In this document: in pieces, positions 1,582-16,068 of the stretch | Numbering within the stretch: position 1 is the stretch's first letter | How the letters are laid out: each line of letters begins with the position of its first letter | DNA from: a virus | Virus record (IMG/VR): IMGVR_UViG_3300045919_000094 | Coordinates: 1 to 31,064 of that record | DNA: 31,064 nt | Strand: one strand, 5' to 3' | Program-made: the position numbers and the translations under genes | The notes under the pieces: generated by a model | What the model was told of the DNA's origin: nothing | Database searches by the model: none | The model's input: the letters and a program-made list of their open reading frames with translations, nothing else

Positions 1582-1607
1582 GCGTAATCGGAGACCCCAA
1601 AGCATGA
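1578..1607 (+). other. 9-codon mini-cistron between the LuxR-type gene and pseB
   Basis: ATG at 1578 overlaps the stop of the LuxR-type gene (ATGA). The frame encodes MSVIGDPKA and stops with a TGA that overlaps the ATG of pseB at 1604 (again ATGA). A GGAG at about 1590-1593 can serve pseB. It may couple pseB translation to the upstream gene, or be the remaining first codons of the gene that followed luxR before the cassette was inserted. Translation of the peptide is not shown. Confidence 0.4.
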
Positions 1608-2434
1608 AGAGTGTTTTGATCACTGGCGGCAGCGGCTTTCTGGGCCGCGCGCTGGCCAGGCGTCTGATGGACATGGATGTGACGCGCATCGCGTTGCTCT
1701 CAAGTTCCGAGTCCCGGATGCATGAGGCCAGGCAGATCCTGGGTGACGACAGCCGTCTGCGCTACATGGTGGGAAACGTGCGAGACGCTGAGCGGATGCT
1801 GCGCGCCATGCGCGGCGTCGACACCGTCATCCATGCCGCAGCGCTCAAGCGCGTCGAGGTTGGGCAAGAGAACCCGCGCGAGATGATCGCGACCAACGTG
1901 CAAGGCACGGTCAACGTGCTGAATGCGGCAGAGGACTGCGGCGTGAGCAAGTTCGTATTCGTGTCGAGCGACAAAGCCTGCGAGCCGGCCAATCTGTACG
2001 GCGCTACCAAGTTCATGGGCGAAGGCCTGGTGCTTGCGCCTCGGGGTGAGTTGATGCCGCGGTGCTGCGTTGTGCGGTATGGCAACGTGGCCGGAAGCAC
2101 TGGCAGCGTGATCCCGATCTGGCGCCGCGCGCTGGAGCAGGGCAAGACGGTGCGGTTGACCGACTGGGCGGCCACGCGGTTCTGGATGACGCGCACCCAG
2201 GCTGTCAACTTTGTGCTCGACGCTGCGCTGGGCGGTCAGAACGGCGACCTGCTGGTGCCAGACCTGCCGGCCTACATGCTGGGCGACCTGGCGCTGGCCA
2301 TGGGCGTGGACTACGAGGTCACGCGACTGAACCCGGGCGAGAAGCGGCACGAGTCGATGCGATCAGGCGAATCGTCTGCTGATGCCAGGCGCATGACGGT
2401 GGATGAGTTACGCGAGGCGCTGACGTGTATCTGA
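1604..2434 (+). CDS. pseB: PseB-type UDP-GlcNAc 4,6-dehydratase (5-inverting)
   Basis: Predicted first step of pseudaminic acid synthesis: NADP-dependent conversion of UDP-GlcNAc to the 4-keto-6-deoxy-L-arabino sugar in the cytoplasm. The 276-aa protein has the extended SDR nucleotide motif GGSGFLG (residues 8-14), VIHAAALKRV (75-84), the PseB/FlaA1-type SSDKA motif with Asp123-Lys124, and Tyr132/Lys136 in LYGATK. VVRYGNVAGSTGSVIP and the C-terminal PGEKRHESM also match PseB. These features separate it from ordinary GalE-like epimerases. It is somewhat shorter than typical PseB (about 330 aa), mainly at the C-terminus. The ATG is preceded by GGAG and couples to a 9-codon mini-cistron. Its end overlaps the HNH gene by 10 bases. 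Confidence 0.88.
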   Translation: MKSVLITGGSGFLGRALARRLMDMDVTRIALLSSSESRMHEARQILGDDSRLRYMVGNVRDAERMLRAMRGVDTVIHAAALKRVEVGQENPREMIATNVQGTVNVLNAAEDCGVSKFVFVSSDKACEPANLYGATKFMGEGLVLAPRGELMPRCCVVRYGNVAGSTGSVIPIWRRALEQGKTVRLTDWAATRFWMTRTQAVNFVLDAALGGQNGDLLVPDLPAYMLGDLALAMGVDYEVTRLNPGEKRHESMRSGESSADARRMTVDELREALTCI

Positions 2435-2922
2435 TCACCGATGAGCAGAGGCTCCGGTTTGCCTCAAAGACGCGGCAAGCAGATAGCGGCTGCATCGAAT
2501 GGCGTGGCTCGCTGAAGTCGATGGTGGGCGGCCAAAAAACATACGGCCAGTTCTGGTGCGGGCGATTAGGCGCCGACGGGAGGATGAGGCTTGCTCATCG
2601 AGTTGCCTGGGAAATGGCCAACGGGCCCGCCCCGGAAGGTTTGATGGTTATGCATTCCTGCGACAACCCTTTGTGCGTGAACGTGGCCCATTTGTCTTTG
2701 GGTACCGCCAAGGACAACACCGCGGACATGATCTCCAAAGGCAGGAAAGCAACCACGGCAGGCGAAGCTCATGGCGGCGCTTTGCTAACCACTGCGCAAG
2801 CCCTGGCGATTCGCGAACTGCGAAGCCGCGGCGTGCCAAGGTCGCGCGTTGCCGCATTGTTTGAAGTGTCTGAGCGAACGATTGGGCGCATCACAAACCG
2901 ACAGGGCTGGAAGCATGTTTGA
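2425..2922 (+). CDS. HNH homing endonuclease 1 (HNH_3 type with C-terminal HTH)
   Basis: A 165-aa protein starting at GTG inside the end of pseB and ending inside the start of pseC. The HNH core is at residues 73-107: His77, Cys79-Asp80-Asn81, Cys84, His89, then GTAKDNTADMISKGR, the usual signature of phage HNH_3 endonucleases. Residues 123-160 (LTTAQALAIRELRSRGVPRS and following) form a DNA-binding HTH. It is expected to cut a site near its own insertion point and spread by repair. It plays no part in sugar synthesis, and its GC content appears lower than that of its neighbours. Start choice is moderately sure; a GAGG lies upstream. Confidence 0.88.
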   Translation: MYLITDEQRLRFASKTRQADSGCIEWRGSLKSMVGGQKTYGQFWCGRLGADGRMRLAHRVAWEMANGPAPEGLMVMHSCDNPLCVNVAHLSLGTAKDNTADMISKGRKATTAGEAHGGALLTTAQALAIRELRSRGVPRSRVAALFEVSERTIGRITNRQGWKHV

Positions 2923-3529
2923 TCCGCACCAGGTCACGCGCGACTTCGAGGCTGCGCTGTGCGAGTACACCGGGGCCAAGTACGCGGTGACGACGACCAG
3001 TTGCACGATGGCGCTGACGATCGCTCTGGCATGGCATTGGGCAGAGGACGGCCGACAGCGGCTGCTGATGCCATCGCACACCTACATCGGCGTGCCGTCT
3101 GCGGCGATGAATGCAGGCCATGCGGTGGGCTTCAGCGATACGCCCTGGCACTTTGCCTACCCAATCGAAGCCCGGGGCGGAACTGTGTGGGACTGCGCGT
3201 GGCATCTTGAGCGCAGCATGTTTCGCCGCGGCGAAATGCAGTGCTTGTCGTTCCACTGGACTAAGCCATTGGGCCTGGGCCAGGGTGGCGCCATCCTGCA
3301 CGACGACGACAGCGCCGATGAGTGGCTACGCCGCGCGCGCTTCGACGGTCGCACGGAGGGCGTGCACCCCAAGGACGACGTCATTCAGTGGCCCAACTGG
3401 CACGCCTACATGTCGCCTGAGACGGCGGCCACCGGGCTGATGCGGCTGAACGCTGGCGCTTTGCGCACCGATCACGTCGCCCGCTGGAGCGACTACCCAG
3501 ACATCTCACTGCAGGAGGCATTCAAGTGA
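2915..3529 (+). CDS. pseC: Miniature DegT/PseC-like PLP aminotransferase
   Basis: Predicted 4-aminotransferase acting on the PseB product. The start at 2915 gives 204 aa; the frame is open further upstream but only inside the HNH gene. Recognisable DegT blocks are TTTSCTMALTIAL (residues 26-38), MPSHTYIG (52-59), the PLP-binding Asp93 in VWDCAWHLERS, the Schiff-base Lys117 in LSFHWTKPLGLGQGGAIL, and NWHAYMSPETAATGLMRL near the end. Canonical PseC is about 380 aa. Here about 60 residues between the PSHT block and the Asp block, and the whole C-terminal small domain, are missing. The blocks remain in one frame, so this looks like a compact enzyme, not a frameshift. Activity is uncertain because the missing domain normally helps bind substrate. 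Confidence 0.75.
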   Translation: MFDPHQVTRDFEAALCEYTGAKYAVTTTSCTMALTIALAWHWAEDGRQRLLMPSHTYIGVPSAAMNAGHAVGFSDTPWHFAYPIEARGGTVWDCAWHLERSMFRRGEMQCLSFHWTKPLGLGQGGAILHDDDSADEWLRRARFDGRTEGVHPKDDVIQWPNWHAYMSPETAATGLMRLNAGALRTDHVARWSDYPDISLQEAFK

Positions 3530-3906
3530 CCAACGCCATAGCCGAGAGGCAGATCCGAACCGACATCGACATGCAGGTCACCGCGCGCGACGGCCAGATC
3601 CATCTGCTGTTCAACGAGAAGAACCAGGCCGGCGAGCGCGTGCCGGCCTACACGCCCAACTTCCTGATGTCGGCATCGGATGCGCTGGCGTTCAGCACGC
3701 TGCTGGCCGACCTGGCGTTCGAGGCTGAGACAGGGCTGAAGGCTGCGGGCCCGGCGGTCAAGGCCGAGTTGATCGAGCGGCACCGCGTCAAGCTGGTGGA
3801 CCGGCTGACGGTGGTGCTGAACAGCGTGCGCGAGAAGAAGACCACGACCAATCGTGGGCTGGCCAAGCAGGCTGTCGACATCGTGCTGGCCGAGGTCTTC
3901 AATTGA
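3526..3906 (+). CDS. Unknown 126-aa protein inside the sugar cassette
   Basis: Starts with GTG in a GTGA overlap with pseC, with AGGAGG about 9 bases upstream, and overlaps pseF at its end. The protein is mostly helical with a central AYTPNFLMSASDALAFSTLL and a Lys/Arg-rich C-terminus (REKKTTTNRGLAKQAVDIVL). There is no signal peptide, membrane segment or recognised domain. It does not resemble the missing C-terminal domain of PseC or the PseG hydrolase. It could be an ordinary phage protein captured with the cassette, or an accessory subunit for one of its enzymes; the coupling on both sides argues that it is expressed with them. Confidence 0.7.
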   Translation: MTNAIAERQIRTDIDMQVTARDGQIHLLFNEKNQAGERVPAYTPNFLMSASDALAFSTLLADLAFEAETGLKAAGPAVKAELIERHRVKLVDRLTVVLNSVREKKTTTNRGLAKQAVDIVLAEVFN

Positions 3907-4484
3907 GGCTGGCCATCATCCCGGCGCGTGGCGGCAGCGTGCGAGTGCCACGCAAGAACATCAAGCCGTTCCGCGGCAAGCCGATGCTCGAGTACCCGGT
4001 GACGGCAGCTAGGAACAGCGGCCTGTTTGAAAACATCGTGGTCAGCACCGACGACGAAGAGATTGAGGGCGCTGCCTTGGGCATGGGTTGCGAAGTGCAT
4101 TGGCGCCTTGCAGACGACGGCACCAAGGGCACCCAGGAGATAGCCCGCGAGGTGTTGGCGGTCTGGCCATGGATTACCGAGGCCTGCGTCATCTACCCCT
4201 GCAGCCCACTGCTGGTGGCCGCCGACCTGGTGCGCGGCCATGCCGTGCTGCAGCAACGAGGCGCACTGTTCGCCATGAGTGTGGCCACCGACCCGCTGGC
4301 CGACGCCGGCTGCTTCTACTGGGGCAAGGCCGAGGCCTTCCTGGTCCGAGCGCCGCTGATCGACAGCCACACCGTGATGGTGCCGATGCCTTCCAACCGC
4401 TGCATCGACATCAACACACCCGAGGACTGGGCGAAGGCCGAGTCCATGTTCGACGCCTTGAGGAGGGCACCCCATGAAACCTGA
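3903..4484 (+). CDS. pseF: PseF-type CMP-nonulosonate cytidylyltransferase
   Basis: Predicted to activate the sugar acid with CTP, giving CMP-pseudaminate (or a relative) and pyrophosphate. The 193-aa protein has the NeuA/PseF CTP-binding motif IPARGGSVRVPRKNIKPFRG (residues 5-24), VVSTDDEEI, YPCSPLL, a DAGCFYWGKAEAFL stretch resembling PseF-type enzymes, and a C-terminal CIDINTPEDWAKAE block that usually closes the active site. Family members are usually near 230 aa, so this is compact. The start is TTG at 3903, overlapping the previous stop; no ATG fits, because the CTP motif begins almost at once. Confidence 0.85.
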   Translation: MRLAIIPARGGSVRVPRKNIKPFRGKPMLEYPVTAARNSGLFENIVVSTDDEEIEGAALGMGCEVHWRLADDGTKGTQEIAREVLAVWPWITEACVIYPCSPLLVAADLVRGHAVLQQRGALFAMSVATDPLADAGCFYWGKAEAFLVRAPLIDSHTVMVPMPSNRCIDINTPEDWAKAESMFDALRRAPHET

Positions 4485-5055
4485 AGCATTCTGGGCCGGC
4501 GAGTTCGGCAATGAGTACGTGGACCGCAACCGAGTTGACTGGCATGCGCGCCTGCCGTTCTGGGAGAGTGCCGTGCAGTTCTGTCAGCCCGGCACGGTGC
4601 TCGAGGTCGGCTGCAACGCAGGGTGGAACCTGCTGGCCATCCATGAGGTCGCGCCGCGGGCTGAACTCAGCGGCATCGACATCAACGGCAAGGCCGCAGA
4701 GGAGGCGCGCCAGGCGGGCATCGATGCCATGTGCATTGCAGCCATCCCGGGCTGCCAGTCTCACGGGCCCGAGGCATTCGACCTGGTGTTCACGGCCGGC
4801 GTTCTGATCCACGTCCCGCCCGAAGACCTGAAGGCCACGATGCAAGCCATCGTTGACGTCAGCGCCAAGTACGTCATCGCGGTGGAGTACGAGGCCGAGA
4901 AGGAAGAAGAGGTCGAGTACCGCGGGCATGCGGGCAAGTTGTGGAAGCGGCCGTTCGGCGCCCTGTACGAAGCGCTGGGCCTGCGACTGCTGTCGGTGGT
5001 GCCGGATGCGCAGGGCTTCGACAAGTGCACGGCCTGGGTGCTGGAGAAGCCGTGA
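4474..5055 (+). CDS. Pseudaminic acid biosynthesis-associated SAM methyltransferase
   Basis: A 193-aa class I methyltransferase. The N-terminus EAFWAGEFGNEYVDRNR is characteristic of the family described as pseudaminic acid biosynthesis-associated methylase (TIGR03587). SAM motif I is VLEVGCNAGWNLLAI (residues 42-56), the acidic position is in LSGIDIN, and the FDLVFTAGVLIHVPPEDL block follows. Substrate is not shown by sequence; by family and position it is a nonulosonate or its precursor, so the final sugar may be O- or N-methylated. It has a strong GAGGAGGG ribosome site, overlaps pseF by 11 bases, and shares one base with the next gene (TGATG). Confidence 0.83.
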   Translation: MKPEAFWAGEFGNEYVDRNRVDWHARLPFWESAVQFCQPGTVLEVGCNAGWNLLAIHEVAPRAELSGIDINGKAAEEARQAGIDAMCIAAIPGCQSHGPEAFDLVFTAGVLIHVPPEDLKATMQAIVDVSAKYVIAVEYEAEKEEEVEYRGHAGKLWKRPFGALYEALGLRLLSVVPDAQGFDKCTAWVLEKP

Positions 5056-6152
5056 TGCTGCGCTGCTCGCGATGCGTCATGCCATCAACTCGTCCAGACA
5101 CGCCATTCATCGACGGGGTCTGCTCGGCATGCTTGACCTACGCCCGCAGGGCCGCGGTGGATTGGGAGGCGCGTAAGGCTGAACTGGTGCATCTGCTGGA
5201 CCGCCACGCTGGCCGGGTGCTGGTGCCGTCGTCGGGCGGCAAGGACTCGACCTACCAGGCGCTGACGCTGCTCGAGCTCGGCGCCGATGTCACGATCGTC
5301 ACAGCGCGGACCTGCCACCTGACGCCCATCGGCCGGGCCAACATTGACAACCTTGCGCGCTACGCCAGGACCATTGAGGTCGTGCCGAACATGCGCGTGC
5401 GGGCGAAGCTGAACCGGCTGGCGCTGGAGATGGTGGGCGACATCTCATGGCCAGAGCATGCAGTCATCTTCAGCACGCCATTCAATGTTGCAGCGCAGAC
5501 AGGCCACACGCTGCTGATGTACGGCGAGTGCCCGCAGGCTGAGTACGGCGGGCCCATGGGCAGCGAGCAGGCCAAGCAGATGACCCGCCGCTGGCGCAGC
5601 GAGTTCGGCGGATTCCTGGGCCTGCGGCCGGATGACTTCGTGGGCGAGGAGGGCATCACCGAGCGGGACATGCAGGACTACACCGTGCAGTGCTGGCCGT
5701 CAGATCTCGAGGCGCACTTCCTGGGGCAGTACATCCCGTGGGACAGCAGGCGCAATGCCGAGGTGGCGATCAAGGCGGGCATGCAAGCCCAACGCCCATG
5801 CGACGCCAATTGGTGGAACGCCGAGAATTTAGATAATTGGCAAACTGCTTGCCACGATGCAGGTATGTACCGAAAATACGGCTTCGGTCGGGGATGCCAG
5901 CAAATCAGCGTCGATGTGCGCGCTGGCCTTGTTGACCGCAAGGTGGCCCTGGCGTGGGTGCGCGAGTTTGACGGTCGATTTAGCGGCTGGTACTCAGGCG
6001 TTAATTTCCACGAGGGGTTGGATCGACTTGGGATGGCGGCGCCTCATTTCATGGCAGCGCTGGACAAGTTCACGGACTGGGCCCTGTTCGACGGCATGGA
6101 CGGGTTGCGTCCACTGTTGAAGGAGTTTCGGTATGGGACGCAAGGCGATTGA
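5055..6152 (+). CDS. pseA: PseA/WbpG-like N-acetyl sugar amidotransferase
   Basis: A 365-aa protein of the ATP PP-loop family that turns a sugar N-acetyl group into an acetamidino group (PseA in flagellar Pse5Ac7Am, WbpG in O-antigen). An N-terminal Zn-binding Cys pair set lies at Cys4/Cys7 and Cys23/Cys26, the PP-loop SSGGKDST at residues 59-66, and a conserved YGECPQAEYGG block follows. The frame runs open upstream to 4941, but the ATG at 5055 is right: the Cys cluster follows it immediately and it shares a base with the previous stop. The last part (about 5821-5880) is clearly AT-richer than the rest, just upstream of an HNH gene that overlaps the 3' end by 20 bases. Confidence 0.85.
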   Translation: MLRCSRCVMPSTRPDTPFIDGVCSACLTYARRAAVDWEARKAELVHLLDRHAGRVLVPSSGGKDSTYQALTLLELGADVTIVTARTCHLTPIGRANIDNLARYARTIEVVPNMRVRAKLNRLALEMVGDISWPEHAVIFSTPFNVAAQTGHTLLMYGECPQAEYGGPMGSEQAKQMTRRWRSEFGGFLGLRPDDFVGEEGITERDMQDYTVQCWPSDLEAHFLGQYIPWDSRRNAEVAIKAGMQAQRPCDANWWNAENLDNWQTACHDAGMYRKYGFGRGCQQISVDVRAGLVDRKVALAWVREFDGRFSGWYSGVNFHEGLDRLGMAAPHFMAALDKFTDWALFDGMDGLRPLLKEFRYGTQGD

Positions 6153-6804
6153 TATGACGGGCATGGTTTGCTCAAGGCTGACCGTGATCGACAGGGCTGG
6201 GCTTGGGTCCAACGGCGCCGAGTGGAATTGCGTGTGCGCGTGTGGCCGCACCGTTTCCGCTGCCGGCCCACTGCTTAGACGCGGGGCAGTGAAGTCGTGC
6301 GGCTGCCTGAAGGCAGAAGTTGGGGCTGCGCACTTGGCGGCGTATGCGGCCACAGGGAAGCATGCTGCTTTGAGGCATGGGGAAGCAAAGGCCGGCCAAG
6401 AGTCTGTCGAGTGGCGCACATGGCACTCAGTGAAGCGACGGTGCGATCCAGCGGCGGCGCGCATATTCCCCGACTACGCTGGCCGCGGGATCAGCATGCA
6501 CCAAGACTGGCGCCAATCGTTTGAGGCGTTTGTGGCGGCGGTTGGGCGGCGTCCAGGCCCGGGCTATTCGCTTGACCGATACCCGAACAACGACGGCAAC
6601 TATGAGCCTGGCAATGTGAGATGGGCCACACGAAAGCAGCAAGCAAGGAACCGCAGGAACAGTCTGTACATCGAATGCGGCAACGAGTGGAGAACGCTGG
6701 CCGAGTGGTCCGAGATCACAGGCCTGAAGAACACCACGATCCGGGGCCGGTTGCGCGCTGGATGGCCGGTAGAAAGGGCGCTTCAATGCTCGCGAAAAGA
6801 GTAA
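6133..6804 (+). CDS. HNH homing endonuclease 2 (YxGRGI-type)
   Basis: A 223-aa protein with AAGGAG before its ATG. Residues 30-60 hold a CVCACG...SCGC Cys cluster. The nuclease core is at 93-175: TWHSVKRRC, YAGRGISMHQDW (115-126), YSLDRYPNNDGNYEPGNVRW (145-164). This set is typical of a family of phage HNH endonucleases. Residues 188-215 look like an HTH (LAEWSEITGLKNTTIRGRL) for target recognition. It starts inside the amidotransferase gene and ends inside the HisF-like gene, as HNH 1 does between pseB and pseC. It is a mobile gene with no expected metabolic role. Confidence 0.85.
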   Translation: MGRKAIDMTGMVCSRLTVIDRAGLGSNGAEWNCVCACGRTVSAAGPLLRRGAVKSCGCLKAEVGAAHLAAYAATGKHAALRHGEAKAGQESVEWRTWHSVKRRCDPAAARIFPDYAGRGISMHQDWRQSFEAFVAAVGRRPGPGYSLDRYPNNDGNYEPGNVRWATRKQQARNRRNSLYIECGNEWRTLAEWSEITGLKNTTIRGRLRAGWPVERALQCSRKE

Positions 6805-7481
6805 TCCCAACCATCCTGGTCCGCGGCAAGACCGCCTTCAAGGGCGAGCGCTTTGTCAGCACGCGCAGCATCGGGTCGGCTTCCGCCATCGCCAAGGTGC
6901 ACGCCAAGCGCGGCGTCGATGAGCTCTGCATCCTGGACATTGGAGCGACTGCAGAAGGCCGCGGGCCAGATCTCGACCTGGTTCGCGAATTGAGCGCCGG
7001 GTGCTTCATCCCCATCACGGTGGGTGGCGGCGTGAAGACGTTGCACGACATCGATGCGCTGCTGCGGGCTGGGGCGGACAAGGTCAGCATCCGCACAGAG
7101 CACGACCTGTTCAAGCCTGCAGCCTATCGCTTCGGCAGCCAGGCCATCGTCGGAGTGTGCGACTCGCGCACGGACATACAGACTGCTTCCGGCTGGTGTG
7201 AGTGGCTGGAAGAGCATGGGGCCGGCGAGATCCTGCTCCAGTCTGTCGCCCGCGACGGCACGATGTGCGGCTACGACCTCGACCTCATCCGCGCCGTCAG
7301 CGCCGCAGTCTCCATCCCCGTCATCGCATCAGGCGGCTGCTCGGGCTACGACGACATGGCCGCCGCCTTCAAGGCCGGCGCCGATGCGTGCGCGGCCGGT
7401 GCGCTCTTCCAATTCACCGATGCCACACCCAAGGGCGCGGTGCGGTTCCTGAAGGCTCAAGGACTGGAGGTCAGGGCATGA
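6786..7481 (+). CDS. HisF2-like (beta/alpha)8 barrel protein, partner of the amidotransferase
   Basis: A 231-aa protein; the ATG at 6786 is chosen because MLAKRVIP is the normal HisF N-terminus. Barrel blocks are present: ILDIGATAEGRGPDL, PITVGGGVKTLHDID (76-90), ADKVSI, LLQSVARDGTMCGYDL, IPVIASGGCSG. The catalytic Asp11 of histidine-pathway HisF is Leu here (RVIPTILVRG), as in HisF2 proteins of O-antigen clusters that work with WbpG and HisH2 to supply ammonia for amidination. It is therefore unlikely to make imidazole-glycerol phosphate. No glutaminase (HisH) gene is present in the window. It overlaps the HNH gene by 19 bases and the GNAT gene by 4. Confidence 0.82.
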   Translation: MLAKRVIPTILVRGKTAFKGERFVSTRSIGSASAIAKVHAKRGVDELCILDIGATAEGRGPDLDLVRELSAGCFIPITVGGGVKTLHDIDALLRAGADKVSIRTEHDLFKPAAYRFGSQAIVGVCDSRTDIQTASGWCEWLEEHGAGEILLQSVARDGTMCGYDLDLIRAVSAAVSIPVIASGGCSGYDDMAAAFKAGADACAAGALFQFTDATPKGAVRFLKAQGLEVRA

Positions 7482-7882
7482 AGTTGCAAAGCATCTACGA
7501 CTACCCGGCGATGTGGACGCTTCCGTTCCAACTGCTCAAGGAGCGGGAGCCGCACCAGAACATCAGCCATAAGGAGATGCCGACATGGCAACAGCACTGC
7601 GCCTTCATGCGATCAAGGCCGCACACGGCGTGGTACTGGTTCACATCTCCGGTGGACTTCGAGGCTGGCTGCGTCTACCTGTCCAAGCAGCGCGAGATCG
7701 GCGTGGGGGTGCTGAAGGCGCACCGGGGACAGGGCCTGGGCAGACAAGCGGTCCAGGAGTTGATGCGACTGCACCCGGGGCCCTTCCTGGCGAACATCAA
7801 CCCGATGAACCAGAACAGCGTGGGCTTGTTCAGGAGCCTGGGCTTCAACCTGCTGCAGGAGACATACAGCTATGACGCGTGA
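7478..7882 (+). CDS. pseH: PseH-like GNAT N-acetyltransferase
   Basis: A 134-aa GNAT protein starting in an ATGA overlap after GGAGG. The acetyl-CoA pyrophosphate loop is HRGQGLGRQA (residues 82-91), followed by the NINPMNQNSVGLFRSLGF block (107-124) that many sugar N-acetyltransferases share. By position it would acetylate the 4-amino group made by PseC (the PseH step). It is shorter than classical PseH (about 180 aa), and the first 40 residues are not recognised. Alternative: a GNAT that acylates another amino sugar in the pathway. Confidence 0.72.
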   Translation: MKLQSIYDYPAMWTLPFQLLKEREPHQNISHKEMPTWQQHCAFMRSRPHTAWYWFTSPVDFEAGCVYLSKQREIGVGVLKAHRGQGLGRQAVQELMRLHPGPFLANINPMNQNSVGLFRSLGFNLLQETYSYDA

Positions 7883-7962
7883 ATTGTTCCGAGTGGCCTA
7901 TTTCGGTGCCGGCCAGCGTACCTCTTCCGCCAGGACTCGCCTTCCTCGGAACGGAGGCCATT
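7883..7962 (+). other. 80-base spacer before pseI, the only gap in the cassette
   Basis: All other cassette genes overlap; here 80 bases separate the GNAT stop from the chosen pseI start. The frame of pseI is open through it to a GTG at 7879, which would add 28 residues unlike PseI N-termini. TTCCGAG near its start and CTCGGAA near its end are exact inverted repeats with a loop of about 55 bases. GGAGG just after the second arm serves the ATG at 7963. It may be an RNA structure affecting pseI translation, or a recombination joint. Confidence 0.4.
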
Positions 7963-8952
7963 ATGCCCAACCTTGAGATCGTCGCCGAGCTTTCAGCGAA
8001 CCACCTAGGGTCGTTGCCACGCGCCAAGCAGATCGTGCAAGCCGCGGCAGATGCGGGCGCCGACCTGTTCAAAGTGCAGGTTTGGCAGCAAGACACCCTG
8101 TGCGTGAGCGACAGCTATGTCCTCCCATCAGGCCCCTGGGCTGGCCGCAATCTGCGCGCACTGTACCGCGAAGCATGGACTCCATGGGAATGGTTGCCTG
8201 AATTGTTCGCCCTGGTCCGGCAACTCGGCATGGAGCCGTTCGGCGCTGCGTTCGACAAGCCGAGCGTCGACTACCTCGAGTCGCTGGGCGTGAAGCGCCA
8301 CAAGGTCGCGAGCTTCGAACTGGTGGACCTGCCGCTGATCCGGTACATGGCCGGCAAGGGCAAGCCGCTGATCCTGTCGACCGGCATGGCAACCGAGGGC
8401 GAACTGTATGCGGCGCGGCTGGCCGGCATCTACCCTGGCAAGCAACACACGTTCCTGGTGTGCACCAGCGCTTACCCGGCGCCACCGGAAGACGCCAACT
8501 TGGTCAGGCTGTCCGCGTGGCGCACGCTGCTGGAGTCGCGCAACATCGGGCTGTCGGACCATACCGTGGGCATCGGAACATCGGTCGCCGCGGCAGCGCT
8601 GGGCGCCACGATGATCGAGAAGCACTTGACGCTGAGCCGGGCCGACGGAGGCCTCGACGCCGGGTTCAGCATGGAGCCCGCAGAGTTCAAGCAGCTGGTG
8701 ACCGAGTGCCGCCGCGCGGCCGCGTCGATCGGTGCGGTGCACTACGGGCCAGGGCCCAGCGAGTCAACGTCGCTGCGGCGCAGCCTGTGGGCCATCAAGG
8801 CCATCCTGGCGGGGGATGCGCTGGTCCTTGATGGCAACGTGGCCAGCGCCAGGCCGGCGCTTGGTGTCTCGCCAGACTTCGACCTGTCGGGCAAACAGGC
8901 CCGGTTCAGCATCCCGGCCGGCATGCCGCTCACGCTGGACTGCATCGCATGA
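7963..8952 (+). CDS. pseI: PseI, pseudaminic acid synthase (NeuB family)
   Basis: Condenses a 2,4-diacetamido-2,4,6-trideoxy sugar with phosphoenolpyruvate to form the nine-carbon acid. The 329-aa protein has the NeuB TIM-barrel start AELSANHLGSLPRAKQIV (residues 8-25), ILSTGMATEGEL (137-148), the invariant LSDHTVG (197-203), and SRADGGLDAGFSMEP (225-239). The last block is the PseI version; sialate and legionaminate synthases usually carry a GPDH-type sequence there. Residues about 271-329 form the C-terminal SAF (antifreeze-like) domain (RRSLWAIKAILAGD onward). Full length for the family. The ATG at 7963 follows GGAGG. It ends in an ATGA overlap with the next phage gene. Confidence 0.9.
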   Translation: MPNLEIVAELSANHLGSLPRAKQIVQAAADAGADLFKVQVWQQDTLCVSDSYVLPSGPWAGRNLRALYREAWTPWEWLPELFALVRQLGMEPFGAAFDKPSVDYLESLGVKRHKVASFELVDLPLIRYMAGKGKPLILSTGMATEGELYAARLAGIYPGKQHTFLVCTSAYPAPPEDANLVRLSAWRTLLESRNIGLSDHTVGIGTSVAAAALGATMIEKHLTLSRADGGLDAGFSMEPAEFKQLVTECRRAAASIGAVHYGPGPSESTSLRRSLWAIKAILAGDALVLDGNVASARPALGVSPDFDLSGKQARFSIPAGMPLTLDCIA

Positions 8953-9200
8953 TCCCGCCCGCCATCGACGTGCTGCAGATCGTGTCCGATCTCAACGGCT
9001 GGGGCTGGCGCGACTACAAGATCGAAGTGGCCTGCGGCCTGGGCAGCGGCTATATCGCTCAGGTCCGGTGCGGCGGCATCAAGGAGCCGGCCTACGGCAA
9101 GGCTGCACGGCTGCACAACTTCTGGTTTGAGCAACGCACCGTCGAGACTTCGAAGGCTGAGCATTTGCAAACTCGGCTGGAGTTCGCGACAACAGCGTAA
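8949..9200 (+). CDS. Small HTH-like phage protein
   Basis: An 83-aa protein starting in an ATGA overlap with pseI. The segment IVSDLNGWGWRDYKIEVACG followed by LGSGYIAQVRCGGIKEPAYG resembles a Cro/C1-type helix-turn-helix in which SGYIAQ is the recognition helix, and the ending KAARLHNFWFEQ is typical of small phage regulators. It lies just before the terminase genes and is the first phage-type gene after the cassette. Probable DNA-binding regulator; target unknown. Confidence 0.65.
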   Translation: MIPPAIDVLQIVSDLNGWGWRDYKIEVACGLGSGYIAQVRCGGIKEPAYGKAARLHNFWFEQRTVETSKAEHLQTRLEFATTA

Positions 9201-9221
9201 GGACTGGGTCCAATCCGGCCC

Positions 9222-9764
9222 ATGGCAACCAAGCGCGGGCCCGCCAAGAAGACAGTCGCCCCGGCGAAAAGCAAGGGGGGTCGTCCTTCGCCCTATCTCG
9301 TCGGCTACAAGGTCGACTTCCCGTCGGCCGCCAAGAAGCTGGCGCTGCTGGGCGCGATCGACAAGGACATCGCCGACTTCTTCGGCGTCGCCGAGTCCAC
9401 GCTGTACCTGTGGAAACTCAAGCACCCCGAGTTCGCCAAGGCTCTGCAGGCCGGCAAGGCAATGGCTGATGCCGAGGTCGTGGACCGTCTGTACCAGCGC
9501 GCGCTCGGATTCGAACACGACGAGGTCGACATCCGCGTCATCGACCGCGAGGTCGTACAGACCAAGGTGCGCAAGATCTACGCACCAGACACCGTGGCTT
9601 GCATCTTCTGGCTGAAGAACAGGCAGTCGGCGAAGTGGCGCGACAAGGTCGAAGTCGGCAACACCGACACCCAAGGCAAGGATGTGGCGCCGGCCGATCC
9701 GATGGAGGGCGCCAGGCGCATTGCCTTCGCCCTGGCCAAGGCCAACGAAACCCTGAAGGACTGA
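9222..9764 (+). CDS. terS: Terminase small subunit
   Basis: A 180-aa protein with a Lys/Pro-rich N-terminus, GGRPSPY, then an HTH at about residues 36-66 (AKKLALLGAIDKDIADFFGV, STLYLWK). HPEFAKALQAGKAMADAEVV and a YAPDTVACIFWLKNR-KWRDK block follow. This is the usual pattern of small terminase subunits that recognise phage DNA and hand it to the large subunit. Start at ATG 9222; 21 bases separate it from the previous gene. Unusually, five unrelated genes and a 51-aa ORF lie between it and the large subunit. Confidence 0.82.
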   Translation: MATKRGPAKKTVAPAKSKGGRPSPYLVGYKVDFPSAAKKLALLGAIDKDIADFFGVAESTLYLWKLKHPEFAKALQAGKAMADAEVVDRLYQRALGFEHDEVDIRVIDREVVQTKVRKIYAPDTVACIFWLKNRQSAKWRDKVEVGNTDTQGKDVAPADPMEGARRIAFALAKANETLKD

Positions 9765-9765
9765 G

Positions 9766-10149
9766 ATGCCGCAAGCGCTTGTTGACCTCGCCTACACCAC
9801 GGCCGAGTTGAAGGAAGAGAAGGCCGAGATGACTGTGGGCCCGGGCGGCAAACCCGACCCGTATTCGTGGGGCCTGAACCTCAGGCTGGAAGAGTCCGAG
9901 CTCGACAAGCTGGGCCTGAAGCTGCTGCCGCAGGTTGGCAGTGAAGTGCACTTCATGGCCGTGGCTTGCGTGACCAACGTCAGCCAGTCGTCCAGCGTGC
10001 GGGGCGACGACGAGACCAGCGTTGGCCTGCAGATCCGCATGATGCAAATCTTGCAGGTCGAGGCGCCTGACGAAGAGGGCGGCGAGAAGGAAACGCCGGC
10101 TGCAGAGGTCAAGGAAATGCCGCGCAAGGGCGGGGCGTTGGGTATCTGA
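9766..10149 (+). CDS. Probable capsid-associated protein (capsid-staple-like)
   Basis: A 127-aa acidic protein. Its start MPQALVDLAYTTAELKEE, then SWGLNLRLEESELDKLGL, a beta-rich middle and LQIRMMQILQVE, resemble small head proteins annotated as capsid staple or cement proteins in several phage groups. The assignment is from pattern memory and is moderate. The C-terminal third is Glu/Lys-rich and probably disordered. It starts one base after the terminase small subunit stop. If right, it binds the outside or inside of the capsid lattice. Confidence 0.5.
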   Translation: MPQALVDLAYTTAELKEEKAEMTVGPGGKPDPYSWGLNLRLEESELDKLGLKLLPQVGSEVHFMAVACVTNVSQSSSVRGDDETSVGLQIRMMQILQVEAPDEEGGEKETPAAEVKEMPRKGGALGI

Positions 10150-10150
10150 A

Positions 10151-11518
10151 ATGGCGCTGCGGCAAGTATTGTCCACGATCATGGGGTTTAAGTACGGACT
10201 CGACAGCGCCGGCAATCCGGTGTGGAACCGCCGCGACGGTTCGCAGATCGTGATCGACTCCGATGCAACGACAGGTGTGCCGTCGATCTTCACCAGAACA
10301 ACAACTGGCGCCGAGAAGTTGACGGTGCTAGGCCCTGGAATCATCTCGTTCACGACGGCAATTCCGTTCAACAGCGCCCTCTCCTACATGTCCCAAAGGA
10401 CAGTCAACAGCGTCCTGGCTTTTACCGTCAACAGCACGGGCGCAGTCGAGGGAGGGTCGTGCACGGTCGACCTGCTGGCAGACGGCACGAACGTCCCGAC
10501 CTTCACCGGCTTCCGCGAGTGGGACGGATCGAGTGGCTACGTCAACACGCTGAACGTCCGCAACTGCGTCACGTTCTTCGCTCGAGGCGGGATCTACTAC
10601 TACAGCATCAACCAGCAGTCTGGCGCTGCAGCCGACCAGGTCGCAGCGACTGCCGTCACGTTGTCAGGCCCAACGTCTGGCACCGTCAGCGTCGCATCGA
10701 GCAACTTCACAGTCGGCGCCAATGGCACGATCACTGGAACCGTCGTCGTCACTCCTGCGGCCACTGGCGGCGGCACGTTCACCCCGTCGTCGGTCTCGAT
10801 CAGCAGCGGATCGCCGACCGCGACGTTCTCGTATACGCCGGCATCGACCGGGTCCAAGACGATCAGCGTCACGAACAACGGCAGCCTGTCGAACCCGTCA
10901 TCCATTGCGTTCACATCCAACGCAGCCGGGTACAGCCTGCTCGCGCACGGCAGCGGCGTGCAGACGACTGCGGCCATCAACACAACAGGCGCCGACTTCA
11001 TCGTGGTCGGCATCGCGGCGGACGTCGGCCGCACGCTGTCCGACAACAAGGGCAACACCTGGACCGCGCTCACCGCAAGCAGCAGCGCCGGCCCCGGACT
11101 TTCGACAGCCAGGCTGTTCTATTGCAAGAGCCCAACGGTCGGAACCGGCCACACATTCACGGCGTCAATCAACTATGCGTCGGTGTTCGCAATGGCCTTC
11201 AGTGGGTCTGGCACCATACCGTTCGATGTTGAAATCGGAGCTGTCACCACATCGGCGACATCGTTGGCTGCCGGCAATCTCACGCCATCACAGAACAATA
11301 GCCTGGTGGTGGCACTCCTGACCGAGGGCCCGACCCTTGCGAGCCCGACCATCAGCACCGGGTTCACGGTTTCCGACTCCATCGCAGGCGTCAGCGGGAC
11401 CGCCTACGGCGGCGTGCTGGTCTACGAACTCCAGAGCACGGCCACGGCGCGCAATGCCACCTGGACATGGGCCACCGGCGCTGAAGAAGCCGCGACTCGC
11501 GTGGCGGTGTTCAAGTGA
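10151..11518 (+). CDS. Ig-like domain surface/virion protein
   Basis: A 455-aa Ser/Thr-rich protein in three parts. Residues 1-155 form a beta-rich N-terminal domain of unknown type (FKYGLDSAGNPVWNRRDGSQ). Residues about 160-260 are a bacterial Ig-like repeat (GTVSVASSNFTVGANGTITG, GTFTPSSVSISSG, TFSYTPASTGSKTISVTNNG). Residues about 265-455 form a beta-rich C-terminal domain that begins after a conserved-looking junction and ends VAVFK. There is no signal peptide. Such proteins decorate capsids or tails and can bind cell-surface carbohydrate. The high Ser/Thr content would also suit a glycosylation acceptor. It overlaps the SGNH hydrolase gene by 4 bases. Confidence 0.65.
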   Translation: MALRQVLSTIMGFKYGLDSAGNPVWNRRDGSQIVIDSDATTGVPSIFTRTTTGAEKLTVLGPGIISFTTAIPFNSALSYMSQRTVNSVLAFTVNSTGAVEGGSCTVDLLADGTNVPTFTGFREWDGSSGYVNTLNVRNCVTFFARGGIYYYSINQQSGAAADQVAATAVTLSGPTSGTVSVASSNFTVGANGTITGTVVVTPAATGGGTFTPSSVSISSGSPTATFSYTPASTGSKTISVTNNGSLSNPSSIAFTSNAAGYSLLAHGSGVQTTAAINTTGADFIVVGIAADVGRTLSDNKGNTWTALTASSSAGPGLSTARLFYCKSPTVGTGHTFTASINYASVFAMAFSGSGTIPFDVEIGAVTTSATSLAAGNLTPSQNNSLVVALLTEGPTLASPTISTGFTVSDSIAGVSGTAYGGVLVYELQSTATARNATWTWATGAEEAATRVAVFK

Positions 11519-12219
11519 AACCCGCACTGATAGGCAGGGCTAAATTGCGATATGCCAGCGGTCAGGCCATCGTCGTGTGCGATGGCAACAGTCTGACCAA
11601 GGGCGACTTCGCAACGTCTGCGGCGCAAAGCTACCCGAGCGTGCTTGCAACACTTCCTCCGATCAGCACCAACGGCACGCCGGTCACCAATCTCGGCGTG
11701 TCGGGCCAGACTGCCGCGCAAATGCTGTCCAGCCGGGTCGATGTCACGGCAGCCTACAACGCCGGCAAGGTCTGCGTGCTGGTGGCGTGGGAGTTGGTCA
11801 ACAGCATCTACAACGGGCGCACACCGCAGCAGGCCGTCGATGACTTGCTGCTGTACGTCAGCACCGTGAAGTCCGAGAACCCGTGGCATGTCGCGGTGTG
11901 CACCCAGCCGCCGTCGTATGTCAACAAGCTGTCCGATGCCGGCGTGCTGAATCAGACCACGGTGGATGCGATGAACGCCGATCTGAACAGCGCGAACACT
12001 AAGCTGCGAGCCCAGTGGGCTGGCACTGCAAACCGGCTCATCGACATGCGCTACGCGGGCGGTCCCTTCGACCTAGCCAACTACACCGCCACCACGTTCG
12101 ACAACACCGGCCTCTATCACCAAGAGGCGAGCGGCTGGCGCATCCACTTCAACGACAGCGGGTATGCCGCTATCGCCGCCATCGTCGCCAATAGCCTGCG
12201 GCAGATGCCGGCCCGCTGA
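11515..12219 (+). CDS. SGNH/GDSL-type hydrolase, probably virion-associated
   Basis: A 234-aa protein starting at GTG in a GTGA overlap. The nucleophile motif is VVCDGNSLTKG with Ser26. NLGVSGQTAAQM supplies the block II glycine, VLVAWELVN the block III Asn, and IHFNDSGYAAIA the C-terminal His211. The Asp normally three residues before that His is Trp here, so either another acid completes the triad or it works as a dyad. There is no signal peptide. SGNH enzymes on phage particles usually remove O-acetyl groups from host surface polysaccharide; that role is inferred from its place beside an Ig-like protein. Confidence 0.72.
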   Translation: MKPALIGRAKLRYASGQAIVVCDGNSLTKGDFATSAAQSYPSVLATLPPISTNGTPVTNLGVSGQTAAQMLSSRVDVTAAYNAGKVCVLVAWELVNSIYNGRTPQQAVDDLLLYVSTVKSENPWHVAVCTQPPSYVNKLSDAGVLNQTTVDAMNADLNSANTKLRAQWAGTANRLIDMRYAGGPFDLANYTATTFDNTGLYHQEASGWRIHFNDSGYAAIAAIVANSLRQMPAR

Positions 12220-12606: not shown

Positions 12607-13074
12607 ATGGCTTGGAAAGACAAGATCACTACCACGCTCTTGGGCAGCCGGCTTGGCCTGCAGACCCTGAGCACCGTTCAGAGCGGAGGCCGCACGCCGG
12701 CCGAGTTCGTCGTCGGGGCCGAGGCCGTCCGCGCGCTGAACAGCACTGCGGACACGACAGCCGCGAACCTGCTGGCCTGGGGGCAGTCGGTGCTGACGAC
12801 GGCCGCATCGTCTGGCGTCTACACGCTGGACCCGCCGATTCCCGGCGTGACCAAGACGCTGGTCTTCAACAGCAGCGCCACTTCGGCGTCGCCGATCTAT
12901 GTGAAGACCGCCAACAGCGAGACCTTCGCCAGTTCGGTGATGTCCAGCGGCACGGTGCTGTCGTCATCGGCCAATGCCATCAGCACCCTGGTGCTGACCG
13001 GCATCAGCACTGCTGTGTGGGCCGTGGTCAACCCGTTCAGCACGGCGTCGATCAAGCTCAGCACGACGACCTGA
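12607..13074 (+). CDS. Structural-type phage protein of unknown function
   Basis: A 155-aa protein with a good GGAGG site before its ATG. After a helical start (AWKDKITTTLLGSRLGLQTL) the sequence is beta-rich and Ser/Thr-rich, with YTLDPPIPGVTKTLVFNSS in the middle and ASIKLSTTT at the end. No catalytic motif, signal peptide or membrane segment. Its composition matches phage decoration or fibre-base proteins. No family recognised. Confidence 0.6.
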   Translation: MAWKDKITTTLLGSRLGLQTLSTVQSGGRTPAEFVVGAEAVRALNSTADTTAANLLAWGQSVLTTAASSGVYTLDPPIPGVTKTLVFNSSATSASPIYVKTANSETFASSVMSSGTVLSSSANAISTLVLTGISTAVWAVVNPFSTASIKLSTTT

Positions 13075-13095
13075 TCAGCCTGAGGAGGGAAACTC

Positions 13096-13860
13096 ATGGC
13101 TGAACTGAAGATCGCGCTCTGCGGCTCTGCGCCTGCTTCGGCACGCTCAGCGCCTTACGCTGACCCGGGCTGGAAGATCTGGGGTTGCTCACCCGGCCTG
13201 TACGGCGTCGCGCCACGGGTCGATGAGTGGTTCGAGATGCACGTCTGGGAACCCGGGCAGACCTGGTTCTCGCCCGAATACTGCCAGTGGCTTGCGGCTC
13301 TTCCCGCCCGCGGCGTCACGCTGTGGACCGGCGCGCCAGTTGCAGCCTTGCCAGGCTCTAAGGTCTACCCGGCCGATGAGATCCTGGCCGAGTTCGACCC
13401 GCAGCGCTGGTTCTGCAGCAGCAGCCTGTTCTGGATGATGGCCCGCGCGATCAAACTCGGCGCCACCACCATCGGGCTGTGGGGCGTCGACATGGCGGCC
13501 GGCGAAGAGTACGAGATGCAGCGCGCCGGCATCCACTTCCTGACCTACATAGCCCGCTCGCGCGGCATTGAGGTGGGCACACCACCCGAGTCCGATCTGT
13601 TCACGCCGCGGTTCCGCTACGGTGTGGACGAGTGGACGCACAGCTACCGCAAGACCCGGGCGCGCACCCAGGAACTGCAGGGCAGGCTGGCCCAGGCCAA
13701 GGCGCAGGCCCAGGAGGCGCTGAACGCCAGCCACTTCCTGCAAGGTGCCATTGATGACCTGAAGTACATGGGCGACACCTGGGCCGACAAGCGCGACCAC
13801 ACCGGGCCGCAAGGCTTCCCCGCGGCTTTCGTGCCGCCAACCACTGGAGCATCCGCATGA
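13096..13860 (+). CDS. Conserved phage protein with a DUF115/GT42-like pattern
   Basis: A 254-aa protein with a strong GAGGAGGG site. It begins ELKIALCGSAPASARSAPY, a glycine loop after the first beta strand, then WKIWGCSPG, and later CSSSLFWMMARAIKLGATTI followed by GLWGVDMAAGEEYEMQRAG (128-146). The order GxxP loop, Ser-rich segment, A-I-x-LG, I-x-L-x-G-x-D and Tyr resembles GT42 sialyltransferases and DUF115/Maf proteins, which transfer CMP-nonulosonates. Residues about 187-225 are a Gln/Ala-rich coiled coil. Similar proteins seem to occur in phages without sugar genes, so the general function may differ; the transferase idea is inference. Confidence 0.5.
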   Translation: MAELKIALCGSAPASARSAPYADPGWKIWGCSPGLYGVAPRVDEWFEMHVWEPGQTWFSPEYCQWLAALPARGVTLWTGAPVAALPGSKVYPADEILAEFDPQRWFCSSSLFWMMARAIKLGATTIGLWGVDMAAGEEYEMQRAGIHFLTYIARSRGIEVGTPPESDLFTPRFRYGVDEWTHSYRKTRARTQELQGRLAQAKAQAQEALNASHFLQGAIDDLKYMGDTWADKRDHTGPQGFPAAFVPPTTGASA

Positions 13861-14012
13861 CCAAGACCGAACTGCAAGCCGAACTCGCGCAGGCCCAGGC
13901 CAGCGACTCGCCGTCCGTTGCCGCAGCGATCACCGTCGCCCTGGCTGTCGCGCCAGACGATGAACCTGTCGCTGCCCCGGCGCCTGTCGAGCAGGAACCG
14001 CCAGCCGTCTGA
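13857..14012 (+). CDS. 51-aa Ala/Pro-rich small protein
   Basis: A short frame starting in an ATGA overlap with the previous gene; its stop shares a base with the terminase large subunit start (TGATG). It reads MTKTELQAELAQAQASDSPS, then alanine/valine- and proline-rich sequence with Glu and Gln to the end (EQEPPAV). No family recognised. Tight coupling on both sides supports translation. It may keep ribosomes flowing into the terminase gene. Confidence 0.55.
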   Translation: MTKTELQAELAQAQASDSPSVAAAITVALAVAPDDEPVAAPAPVEQEPPAV

Positions 14013-15625
14013 TGAGCACGCTGGACGACATCATCGCCAGGGTGGCCAAGTTGCCACCGGCTGAGCAGGCTGCGATCTACAAGGACGCGAACGCTCAGAC
14101 GGCGGCGATGAAGTGGGTGCCCAACCCGGGCCCGCAAACCGAGGCCTACTTCAGCAAGGCCGACGTGCTGCTGTACGGCGGCGAGCCGGGTGGCGGCAAG
14201 AGCCAACTGATCCTGGGCCTGGCGCACAACGAGCACCAGCGCTCGCTGATCATGCGCCGGCAGTACGGCGACCTGGACCGCATCATCGAGGACTGCTTGA
14301 AGATCCACGGCAGCCGAGACGGGTTCAACGGCAGCCCGCCGCCAAAGCTGCGTGTGACCGACAAGCAGATCATCGACTTCGCTGCGGCCAACCGCGTGGG
14401 CGATGAGCAGGGCCAGATGGGCAAGGGGCGCGACCTGCTGGGCATTGACGAGGCCACCCACTTCGCCAAGAGCCAGATCCGCTTCCTGATGGGCTGGAAC
14501 CGCAGCGATGACCCCAAGCAGCGAGTGCGAACGGTACTGGCCACCAATCCGCCGCTGAGCGCCGAAGGCCTGTGGGTCATCGAGATGTTCGCCCCGTGGC
14601 TCGATCCGACCTATCACGACCCGGCCAAGCCTGGCGAGTTGCGCTGGGTGGTGTCCGACGACGATGGCAACGACAAATGGGTGCCGGGTCAGGGCGAGTA
14701 CGAGGTGACGGTGGCCGGCAAGGTGAAACAGGTCCGCGCCACGTCACGCACCTACATCCCGGCCAGCGTCAAGGACAACCCCTACTATGTGGCCAGCGGC
14801 TACGAGCAGCAGCTGGACGCCATGCCCGAGCCGTATCGATCGCTACTGATGGGCGGATTCCGCACAGCGTTCAAGGACCAGCCCAACCAGATCATCCCGA
14901 CCAAGTGGGTGGAACTGGCACAAGCGCGGTGGAAGCCGACGCCGCCGGCCGGCGTGCCGATGTGCTCGATCGGCGTGGACGCCAGCGGCGGCGGTGAAGA
15001 CCCGATGGTGCTGTCACCTCGCTATGACGGATGGTTCTCCGAGATGGTCGAGGTGCCCGGAAAGGACATCCCGATGGACCGCGCCGGCGCCTACTGCGCG
15101 GGCATCGTCATCAGCCATCGGCGCGACCAGGCTCTGGTGGTGCTCGATATGGGCGGCGGCTACGGCGGGCCGATGTACGAGCATCTGCGCGGCAACCAGG
15201 TCGAGGTCAAGGCCTACAAGGGCGCGGAGGCTTCATCGCGCCGCACCAACGATGGCAAGCTCAAGTTCACGAACAAGCGCACCGCTGCGCTGTGGCTGTT
15301 CCGTGAAGCGCTGGACCCGGGGCAACCTGGCGGCTCGCCCATCGCGCTGCCACCGCGACCGCGCCTCATGTCCGACCTGACGGCGCCGACCTTTGAGGTC
15401 ACGCCCAACGGCATCAAGGCCGAGCCCAAGGAGCGCGTGATGGAGCGACTGGGTCGGTCGACCAATGAGGGCGACGCGGCCGTGATGTCATGGCACTACG
15501 GACCGCGTGCGATCACGCACGTTGCCGACTGGATGGACCTGACGCAGACCAAGCAAGGCCTGCGCAAGTTGCCGCAGATCGTGCCGCCTGCGCGGCAACC
15601 GCTCTCGGTTCGGAGGCGGGCGTGA
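14012..15625 (+). CDS. terL: Terminase large subunit
   Basis: The ATPase/nuclease motor that packages phage DNA through the portal. The 537-aa protein has an N-terminal ATPase with Walker A GGEPGGGKS (residues 56-64), LIMRRQYGDLDRI after it, Walker B LLGIDEATHF (142-151), and a VRTVLATNPP coupling motif. The C-terminal RNase H-like nuclease has CSIGVDASGGGEDPM and LVVLDMGGGYGGPMYEHL as its acidic blocks. Length is normal. The start shares one base with the upstream stop. It ends in a GTGA overlap with the GNAT gene. Confidence 0.93.
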   Translation: MSTLDDIIARVAKLPPAEQAAIYKDANAQTAAMKWVPNPGPQTEAYFSKADVLLYGGEPGGGKSQLILGLAHNEHQRSLIMRRQYGDLDRIIEDCLKIHGSRDGFNGSPPPKLRVTDKQIIDFAAANRVGDEQGQMGKGRDLLGIDEATHFAKSQIRFLMGWNRSDDPKQRVRTVLATNPPLSAEGLWVIEMFAPWLDPTYHDPAKPGELRWVVSDDDGNDKWVPGQGEYEVTVAGKVKQVRATSRTYIPASVKDNPYYVASGYEQQLDAMPEPYRSLLMGGFRTAFKDQPNQIIPTKWVELAQARWKPTPPAGVPMCSIGVDASGGGEDPMVLSPRYDGWFSEMVEVPGKDIPMDRAGAYCAGIVISHRRDQALVVLDMGGGYGGPMYEHLRGNQVEVKAYKGAEASSRRTNDGKLKFTNKRTAALWLFREALDPGQPGGSPIALPPRPRLMSDLTAPTFEVTPNGIKAEPKERVMERLGRSTNEGDAAVMSWHYGPRAITHVADWMDLTQTKQGLRKLPQIVPPARQPLSVRRRA

Positions 15626-16068
15626 TCTCCTACCAGCGCGAGCAAGTCGGCGACGTGATCGAAGAGATCAAGCCGCTGCTGGCGCTGCATTGGCGCGAGA
15701 TCGCGCACTACCAGGACATCGCGCTGGACCCCGACTGGGAGTTCTACCGGCGTGCGCCGGCTGTGCGTGTCTACACCGCTCGCCTGGACGGCGAGCTGAT
15801 CGGATACGGCGTGTTTTTCCTGGCGCCGAACCGGCACTACAAGCAGTCGATACAGGCGGTGCAGGACATCCTGTTTCTGCACCCCGACCACCGCGGCGGC
15901 CGAACCGGCTACCGGCTGATCAAGTTCTGTGACGAGCAAGCGAAGGCCGAGGGGGCTCAAGCGATCTACCACCACGTCAAGAGCGCGCACGACTTCGGTC
16001 CTCTGCTAGGCGCGCTGGGCTACGAACTGGTGGATCTCATCTACGCCAAGCGATTGGACAAGGAGTAG
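15622..16068 (+). CDS. GNAT-fold acetyltransferase-like protein in the head module
   Basis: A 148-aa protein; GTG at 15622 is chosen because it makes the usual GTGA overlap and the fold starts there (ISYQREQVGDVIEEI). The acetyl-CoA loop region is HPDHRGGRTGYRLIKF (87-102), after the beta strand AVQDILFL. It resembles GNAT-like proteins found between terminase and portal genes in many podoviruses, whose targets are unknown. It is not obviously related to the PseH-like protein, and its place in the virion module argues for a separate, conserved phage role. Confidence 0.75.
   Translation: MISYQREQVGDVIEEIKPLLALHWREIAHYQDIALDPDWEFYRRAPAVRVYTARLDGELIGYGVFFLAPNRHYKQSIQAVQDILFLHPDHRGGRTGYRLIKFCDEQAKAEGAQAIYHHVKSAHDFGPLLGALGYELVDLIYAKRLDKE

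Follow-up and report, generated by a model that had tools for sequence, protein, structure and literature searches.

A phage that encodes much of the pathway to a nine-carbon sugar nucleotide raises the question of which enzyme would transfer the sugar, and onto what. We addressed this question for a viral stretch of 31,064 nucleotides (IMG/VR record IMGVR_UViG_3300045919_000094; hereafter the window), which is probably an incomplete genome because its relatives measure 50–57 kb. A cassette of pseudaminate-type (pse) genes precedes the late genes in this window, and the initial annotation had remarked that the cassette holds no transferase and had proposed that an ORF in the late genes encodes the missing one. 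No scanned cassette gene matched any glycosyltransferase family, and the model of the very common transferase family GT2 (PF00535) was blank across the window and gave no above-cut-off match in 37 contigs. The features on which the argument turns are as follows.

1604..2434, + strand: PseB-like UDP-GlcNAc 4,6-dehydratase (TIGR03589 E 4e-71, below the curated cut-off; PF02719 above)
2849..3529, + strand: PseC-like DegT/DnrJ aminotransferase, short, 226 aa (family models)
3903..4484, + strand: PseF-like CMP-nonulosonate cytidylyltransferase (TIGR03584 E 2e-46, below cut-off)
4474..5055, + strand: pseudaminate biosynthesis-associated methylase (TIGR03587, above cut-off)
5055..6152, + strand: WbuX-type N-acetyl sugar amidotransferase, acetamidino group (TIGR03573 E 2e-53, just below cut-off)
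6621..7481, homology from about 6786, + strand: WbuZ/HisF-like amidotransferase partner (E 2e-57, below the curated cut-off)
7202..7882, homology from about 7475, + strand: GNAT acetyltransferase in the place of PseH (family models)
7879..8952, homology from about 7957, + strand: PseI/NeuB nonulosonate synthase (TIGR03586 E 2e-93, also under NCBI's curated cut-off; PF03102 E 1e-64)
12607..13074, + strand: g12607, candidate acceptor/virion protein, 155 aa (Ser+Thr 31.6%)
13096..13860, + strand: putative nonulosonate transferase of a phage GT42/DUF115-fold family (fold model, conservation)
14012..15625, + strand: terminase large subunit (TerL), directly 3′ of the transferase gene in almost all loci of this lineage

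The order PseB, PseC, PseF, Pse methylase, WbuX, WbuZ, GNAT, PseI, g12607, transferase, terminase recurs in about 90 loci, where genes for the portal, scaffold, major capsid protein and tail tubular proteins follow downstream of the terminase; it was read as far as each contig reaches, and the most distant members are partly rearranged. PseI and the transferase are encoded on the same strand in 49 of the 50 loci having both, at a median distance of 3.3 kb. The cassette provides B-, C-, F- and I-like genes together with the GNAT gene, and PseG, the UDP-sugar hydrolase, is absent from all cassettes in the 37 contigs, so the phage pathway is incomplete and the PseG step must be supplied by the host or by an unrecognised enzyme. 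Several other ORFs were seen in this neighborhood. ORFs resembling HNH/homing endonucleases were picked out by eye at positions 2425–2922, 6133–6804 and 20498–21100 of the window, and one of the three separates the WbuX gene from the WbuZ gene. A GDSL esterase (PF13472) that could trim sugar O-acetyl groups is encoded in the late genes at 11515–12219, and a further GNAT acetyltransferase, kept in part of the lineage, lies between the terminase and portal genes at 15577–16068 and may modify a virion protein or the sugar.

The ORF at 13096–13860 (+) encodes 254 amino acids from an ATG start codon, which lies just 3′ of a ribosome-binding site (AGGAGGG, 13083–13089) and 21 bases past the g12607 stop; the ORF ends about 150 bases short of the terminase gene. 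All motifs on which the initial annotation had relied were found in the protein, in the order claimed: the GxxP loop (GSAP, residues 10–13), the CSSS segment (FCSSS, 106–110), A-I-x-LG (AIKLG, 118–122), I-G-L-W-G-V-D (126–132) and Tyr139. Further features are a nucleotide-loop-like GSAPAS (residues 10–15), E47-x-H49 and WFSPEY (57–62), and the core that runs from SSS (108–110) to GVD (132) is followed by E138 and R143, by Y175 and by a long conserved C-terminal helix (182–228). When 52 homologues, all taken from other viral contigs, were aligned, the invariant columns were G10, A12, P13, S15, S32-P33-G34, E47, H49, W57-FSPEY-62, S109, M114, A118, I126, G130, D132, E138, Q142 and R143. The motifs of the initial annotation sit in these invariant or in near-invariant columns and are therefore not a product of chance.

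Pfam, PHROG and PDB sequence searches, made with the single sequence and with the family, did not recognize the protein and returned chance matches only, among which antibody chains and SNF6 were set aside. The PF06002 (GT42) profile did not match the family, nor did the PF01973 (Maf/DUF115) profile. The homologues were located in IMG/VR viral contigs. Of 50,697 phage records, only that of Microcystis phage Mvi-Yong1342-1 contained a relative, a distant one (31–34% identical), and the genomes of 84,980 bacterial and archaeal species gave one match only, on a phage-like contig in a betaproteobacterial MAG. Thus, the family is essentially viral, and it is nearly absent from cultured phages. The Microcystis phage relative (PP496355.1:34781-35584) is labelled 'type 11 methyltransferase', a label that looks wrong.

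The fold was analyzed with two AlphaFold models. The first, built from 14 close sequences, was of mediocre quality (pLDDT 73), and the second, an AlphaFold2 model built from 52 diverse sequences, reached a pLDDT of 90.1; the 254 residues are modelled as one alpha/beta domain and one long helix. In a Foldseek search of the PDB with the second model, the best 15 matches were all GT42 sialyltransferases, i.e., CstII, Cst-I and the P. multocida sialyltransferase (ST) (E 1e-5 to 6e-4, prob 1.00). By VIA-align, the same model gave Z scores of 11.4 for MjHPPK (8sd5, of the DUF115/MptE group), 10.9 for CstII, 10.7 for Cst-I, up to 10.6 for thiamine pyrophosphokinase (TPK), 10.5 for the P. multocida ST and 7.5 for human ST8SiaIII; unrelated folds scored no higher than about 6. 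Maf (5mu5) tops the VIA list for the weaker first model (Z 11.2) and is missing from that of the second, an absence that does not count against it. The predicted structure therefore has at once the Rossmann-like GT-A variant fold of GT42, the central Maf_flag10/MptE-like fold (5mu5 and 8sd5) and the fold of the HPPK/TPK pyrophosphokinases. An unrelated fold, which would have spoken against the initial annotation, did not appear: its structural guess is supported by the predicted model, yet the fold is common to transferases and pyrophosphokinases.

Profile–profile comparison of the family with GT42, for which the GT42 profile consisted of two sequences only because few GT42 proteins occur in the proteobacterial genomes sampled, aligned SSLFWMMARAIKLGATTIGLWGVDM to TSGVYMCAVAIALGYKEIYLSGIDF gap-free in the register TSGVYM..GID against SSLFWMM..GVD, a marginal result (prob 21.7, E 1e-3). 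It is about equal to that for Maf against GT42, a pair of accepted relatives (prob 27.8, E 6e-4); against PF01973 the family scored prob 3.7. In CstII the general base is His188 and in Cst-I it is His202 (PMC4202792). The 52 homologues have no conserved His after the GVD motif, and His188 of CstII is thus left with no conserved counterpart. Filing the protein under GT42 or DUF115 was rejected, because neither profile recognizes it and the family does not keep the GT42 general base; what stands of the initial annotation is that the protein is GT42-like in fold, and what falls, with the catalytic His, is that it belongs to GT42. Rather, it represents a previously undescribed family of single-domain viral proteins within the GT42/Maf/DUF115 fold group.

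The only invariant His in the 52 homologues is His49, in Glu47-x-His49 directly past the third strand. Across 108 superfamily sequences, His49 is conserved in 98%, Glu138 in 97%, Tyr175 in 95% and Arg143 in 94%, and all four residues are retained in five divergent copies from NeuB-bearing loci. From this conservation, His49 is a candidate catalytic residue in place of the GT42 His188, and Glu138 and Arg143 may likewise take part in catalysis. Inteins favor active sites. On L185, the contig from the betaproteobacterial MAG, the GVDMAAA/SEY motif of the transferase is split by an intein-like insertion that has a Cys start, a His-Asn/Ser end, and LAGLIDADG and intein-splicing matches under the Pfam cut-offs, which hints that the GVD…EY region is an active site. 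The same contig has a second intein-like insertion in the terminase P-loop (the transferase and terminase insertions are at L185:6511-8121 and 8108-10774), and terminase ORFs of about 880–900 aa, compared with 535 aa, occur at L005:10718-13429, L031:4216-6849 and L086:1649-4327, possibly also owing to inteins.

We further analyzed the linkage of the family to the nonulosonate synthase. When contigs were retrieved by the transferase query, with the sugar genes disregarded, NeuB was present in 38 of 50 contigs, and in 30 of 33 with a length of at least 30 kb. In phages that are similar by TerL and lack the transferase, NeuB was found in 0/46, or 0/19 at that length. For the long contigs the difference (30/33 vs 0/19) corresponds to a Fisher p of 2e-11. 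On a TerL tree of 68 phages the non-carriers all lie on one side of a single branch, so the lineage-wide association reflects one joint origin, not dozens of events; we counted it once and did not use it as independent evidence within the lineage. Three long carriers have no NeuB. In two of them (L008 and L091) the contig ends 1.4–1.8 kb upstream of the transferase gene, and the third (L084) is a genuine exception, with no NeuB in its 51-kb contig. Near the virion genes of L084, a sulfotransferase-like ORF was noticed by eye (L084:1522-2088).

In the reverse direction, a family member was present in 49 of the 68 phage loci retrieved by NeuB, or in their records. Thus, the co-occurrence with pse genes proposed as a check in the initial annotation was positive in both directions. 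Both genes, with no detectable TerL homologue, are carried by eight contigs (G499, G505, G510–G513, G518 and G521), most of which are about 75 kb long, and G504 likewise has the transferase and NeuB and no detectable homologue of this terminase. This second lineage is apparently unrelated to the first. In the contigs read, its transferase gene is again found among virion genes, flanked by genes for small Ser/Thr-rich proteins (23–29%) that are unrelated to g12607. Divergent copies of the transferase are also present in NeuB-bearing loci; in two of these phages, L258 and L265, one copy lies by the terminase gene and another beyond NeuB. The divergent second copies upstream of NeuB are at L258:4753-5697 and L265:3205-4431, and L261 and L228 have second divergent or tandem copies. 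The association of transferase and NeuB that is independent of lineage is the strongest functional evidence.

The initial annotation had also cautioned that relatives may exist in phages devoid of sugar genes, and such relatives do occur, as distant ones only. The Microcystis phage, whose genome is complete and by annotation has no nonulosonate genes, is one case, and most of 28 related contigs lack NeuB within 10 kb of the distant relative; NeuB strictly tracking the wider superfamily was therefore rejected. All NeuB-linked sequences examined keep His49. One subgroup of the NeuB-less relatives has Asn or some other residue at the position of His49 (L289, L290, L294, L295 and L305, with no NeuB nearby), which suggests a different function or donor. 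The caution was thus right, and the wider family must either draw its donors from the host or another source or serve another function.

The gene directly 5′ of the transferase points to a possible acceptor. Of the 91 loci whose upstream sequence is long enough to judge, 88 have a g12607 gene in this position (74 by a strict rule and 14 that fail it only through overlapping stop-to-stop frames), and the mean Ser+Thr content of the g12607 family is 27%, whereas that of TerL and the transferase is about 10%. A g12607 profile, built from the transferase neighbors and scored by HMM in the loci collected, found 0 members in 73 terminase relatives that lack the transferase gene; very distant forms elsewhere could escape it. 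L084, the carrier lacking NeuB, still has a g12607-like neighbor. No family model recognizes g12607, which from its composition and position is a candidate for the acceptor or the acceptor's carrier.

Taken together, the fold, the family conservation, the linkage to NeuB and to g12607 and the location in the late genes lead us to consider it likely that the protein is a phage nonulosonate (pseudaminate-type) transferase that uses the donor of the cassette and acts on a virion protein, most likely g12607. As a single-domain Rossmann-like glycosyltransferase, it would bind the nucleotide sugar through the loop at residues 10–15 and the SSS…GVD core. The donor would be a CMP-activated nonulosonic acid from the phage's own cassette, of pseudaminate type and probably acetamidino- and/or methyl-modified, and the sugar would be transferred during late infection, most likely to hydroxyls of the small Ser/Thr-rich g12607. 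Against this reading stand sequence searches in which neither GT42 nor Maf or DUF115 matched significantly, the want of a conserved counterpart to the CstII general base His188, the membership of thiamine and pterin pyrophosphokinases in the same fold, L084 and the Microcystis phage relative with no nonulosonate genes, the single event on the TerL tree and the missing PseG. We put forward more tentatively, as a possibility, a nearly self-contained phage glycosylation system, with its own CMP-nonulosonate pathway, a His49-using family of the GT42/Maf fold, a dedicated virion acceptor and a pseudaminate-type coat.

Other readings of the same data have to be weighed. A nonulosonate transferase might instead modify the host surface (LPS, capsule or glycolipid), thereby blocking superinfection or changing a receptor; changes of host serotype caused by phage glycosyltransferases are established (PMC12619734), and the donor pathway and the fold would fit equally well. 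However, the gene lies in the late structural block in two lineages and not in an early or lysogeny module, it is strictly paired with one small Ser/Thr-rich protein, and no flippase or polymerase was seen in the window, so that we regard a host-surface target as unlikely. We give the same low weight to a transferase that uses a host-made or different sugar nucleotide, its link to the pse genes being inherited synteny of one lineage. The one joint origin on the TerL tree, the exception L084 and the NeuB-less relatives, including the subgroup lacking His49, speak for such a reading, but the second lineage with both genes has no detectable TerL homology, and the divergent copies stand in NeuB-bearing loci, two of whose phages retain the terminase-side copy too.

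It seems improbable to us that the protein binds a nucleotide in the same fold for another chemistry, as an HPPK/TPK-like pyrophosphokinase making a small molecule or modified nucleotide. By VIA-align, MjHPPK does head the structural matches of the second model, TPKs reach Z 10.6, and wider family members occur with no NeuB nearby, but Foldseek ranks GT42 first and gives TPK E values that are worse by two to three orders of magnitude, genes for pterin or thiamine were not noticed in the window, and the association with NeuB would be hard to account for. This association, together with a conservation that is concentrated in the loops forming the nucleotide site of the fold, argues against a degenerate, non-catalytic member serving as a structural or assembly protein, which we consider very improbable despite the long conserved C-terminal helix, the position among morphogenesis genes and the lack of conservation of the GT42 His188.

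The putative transferase can be compared with several known systems. With the GT42 enzymes (CstII, Cst-I and the P. multocida ST; PF06002), its best Foldseek matches in the PDB, it shares the motif order GxxPS ... (T/S)S...M...A.A...G...I.L.G.D, and CMP-nonulosonate chemistry would suit the phage cassette; it differs in its invariant Glu47-x-His49, its long C-terminal helix and the position of its gene beside the terminase gene. Maf (PF01973) has a three-domain architecture, its pfam01973 domain resembles CstII, and Neu5Ac is accepted by a Maf enzyme (PMC11339370). The phage protein resembles Maf/DUF115 in fold, and the addition of a nonulosonate to protein Ser/Thr, as by Maf, is what we propose for it; unlike Maf, which is multi-domain with ORFs of mostly 830–890 aa in the genomes sampled, it has a single domain, and its acceptor would be a phage protein and not flagellin. 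Archaeal HPPK/MptE (8sd5) and the thiamine pyrophosphokinases have the same fold, but the phage protein is linked to sugar genes, matches them more weakly by Foldseek and has no matching pathway context in view. Mycobacteriophage virions bear sugars on capsid and tail tube proteins (Freeman et al., 2023, as cited in PMC12691614 and PMC12619734); compared with that glycosylation as those papers relay it, the phage here also encodes most of a nine-carbon sugar-nucleotide pathway, and its candidate transferase has the GT42/Maf fold. In the open-licence literature we found no paper on a phage nonulosonate transferase.

The nonulosonates, the group that includes sialic acid, have been described chiefly from flagella and the surfaces of cells. 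If our reading is correct, virions would be modified in a new way, by a sugar that the phage makes itself and transfers with an enzyme of its own to a dedicated acceptor, which would bear on adsorption, on escape from host recognition or on particle stability in the environment. Glycobiology gains a minimal, single-domain candidate transferase family, and the role of the phage-borne pse/neu genes, which are usually overlooked as auxiliary metabolic genes, becomes directly testable: some bacterial viruses may sugar-coat a protein of their own particle without the help of the host.
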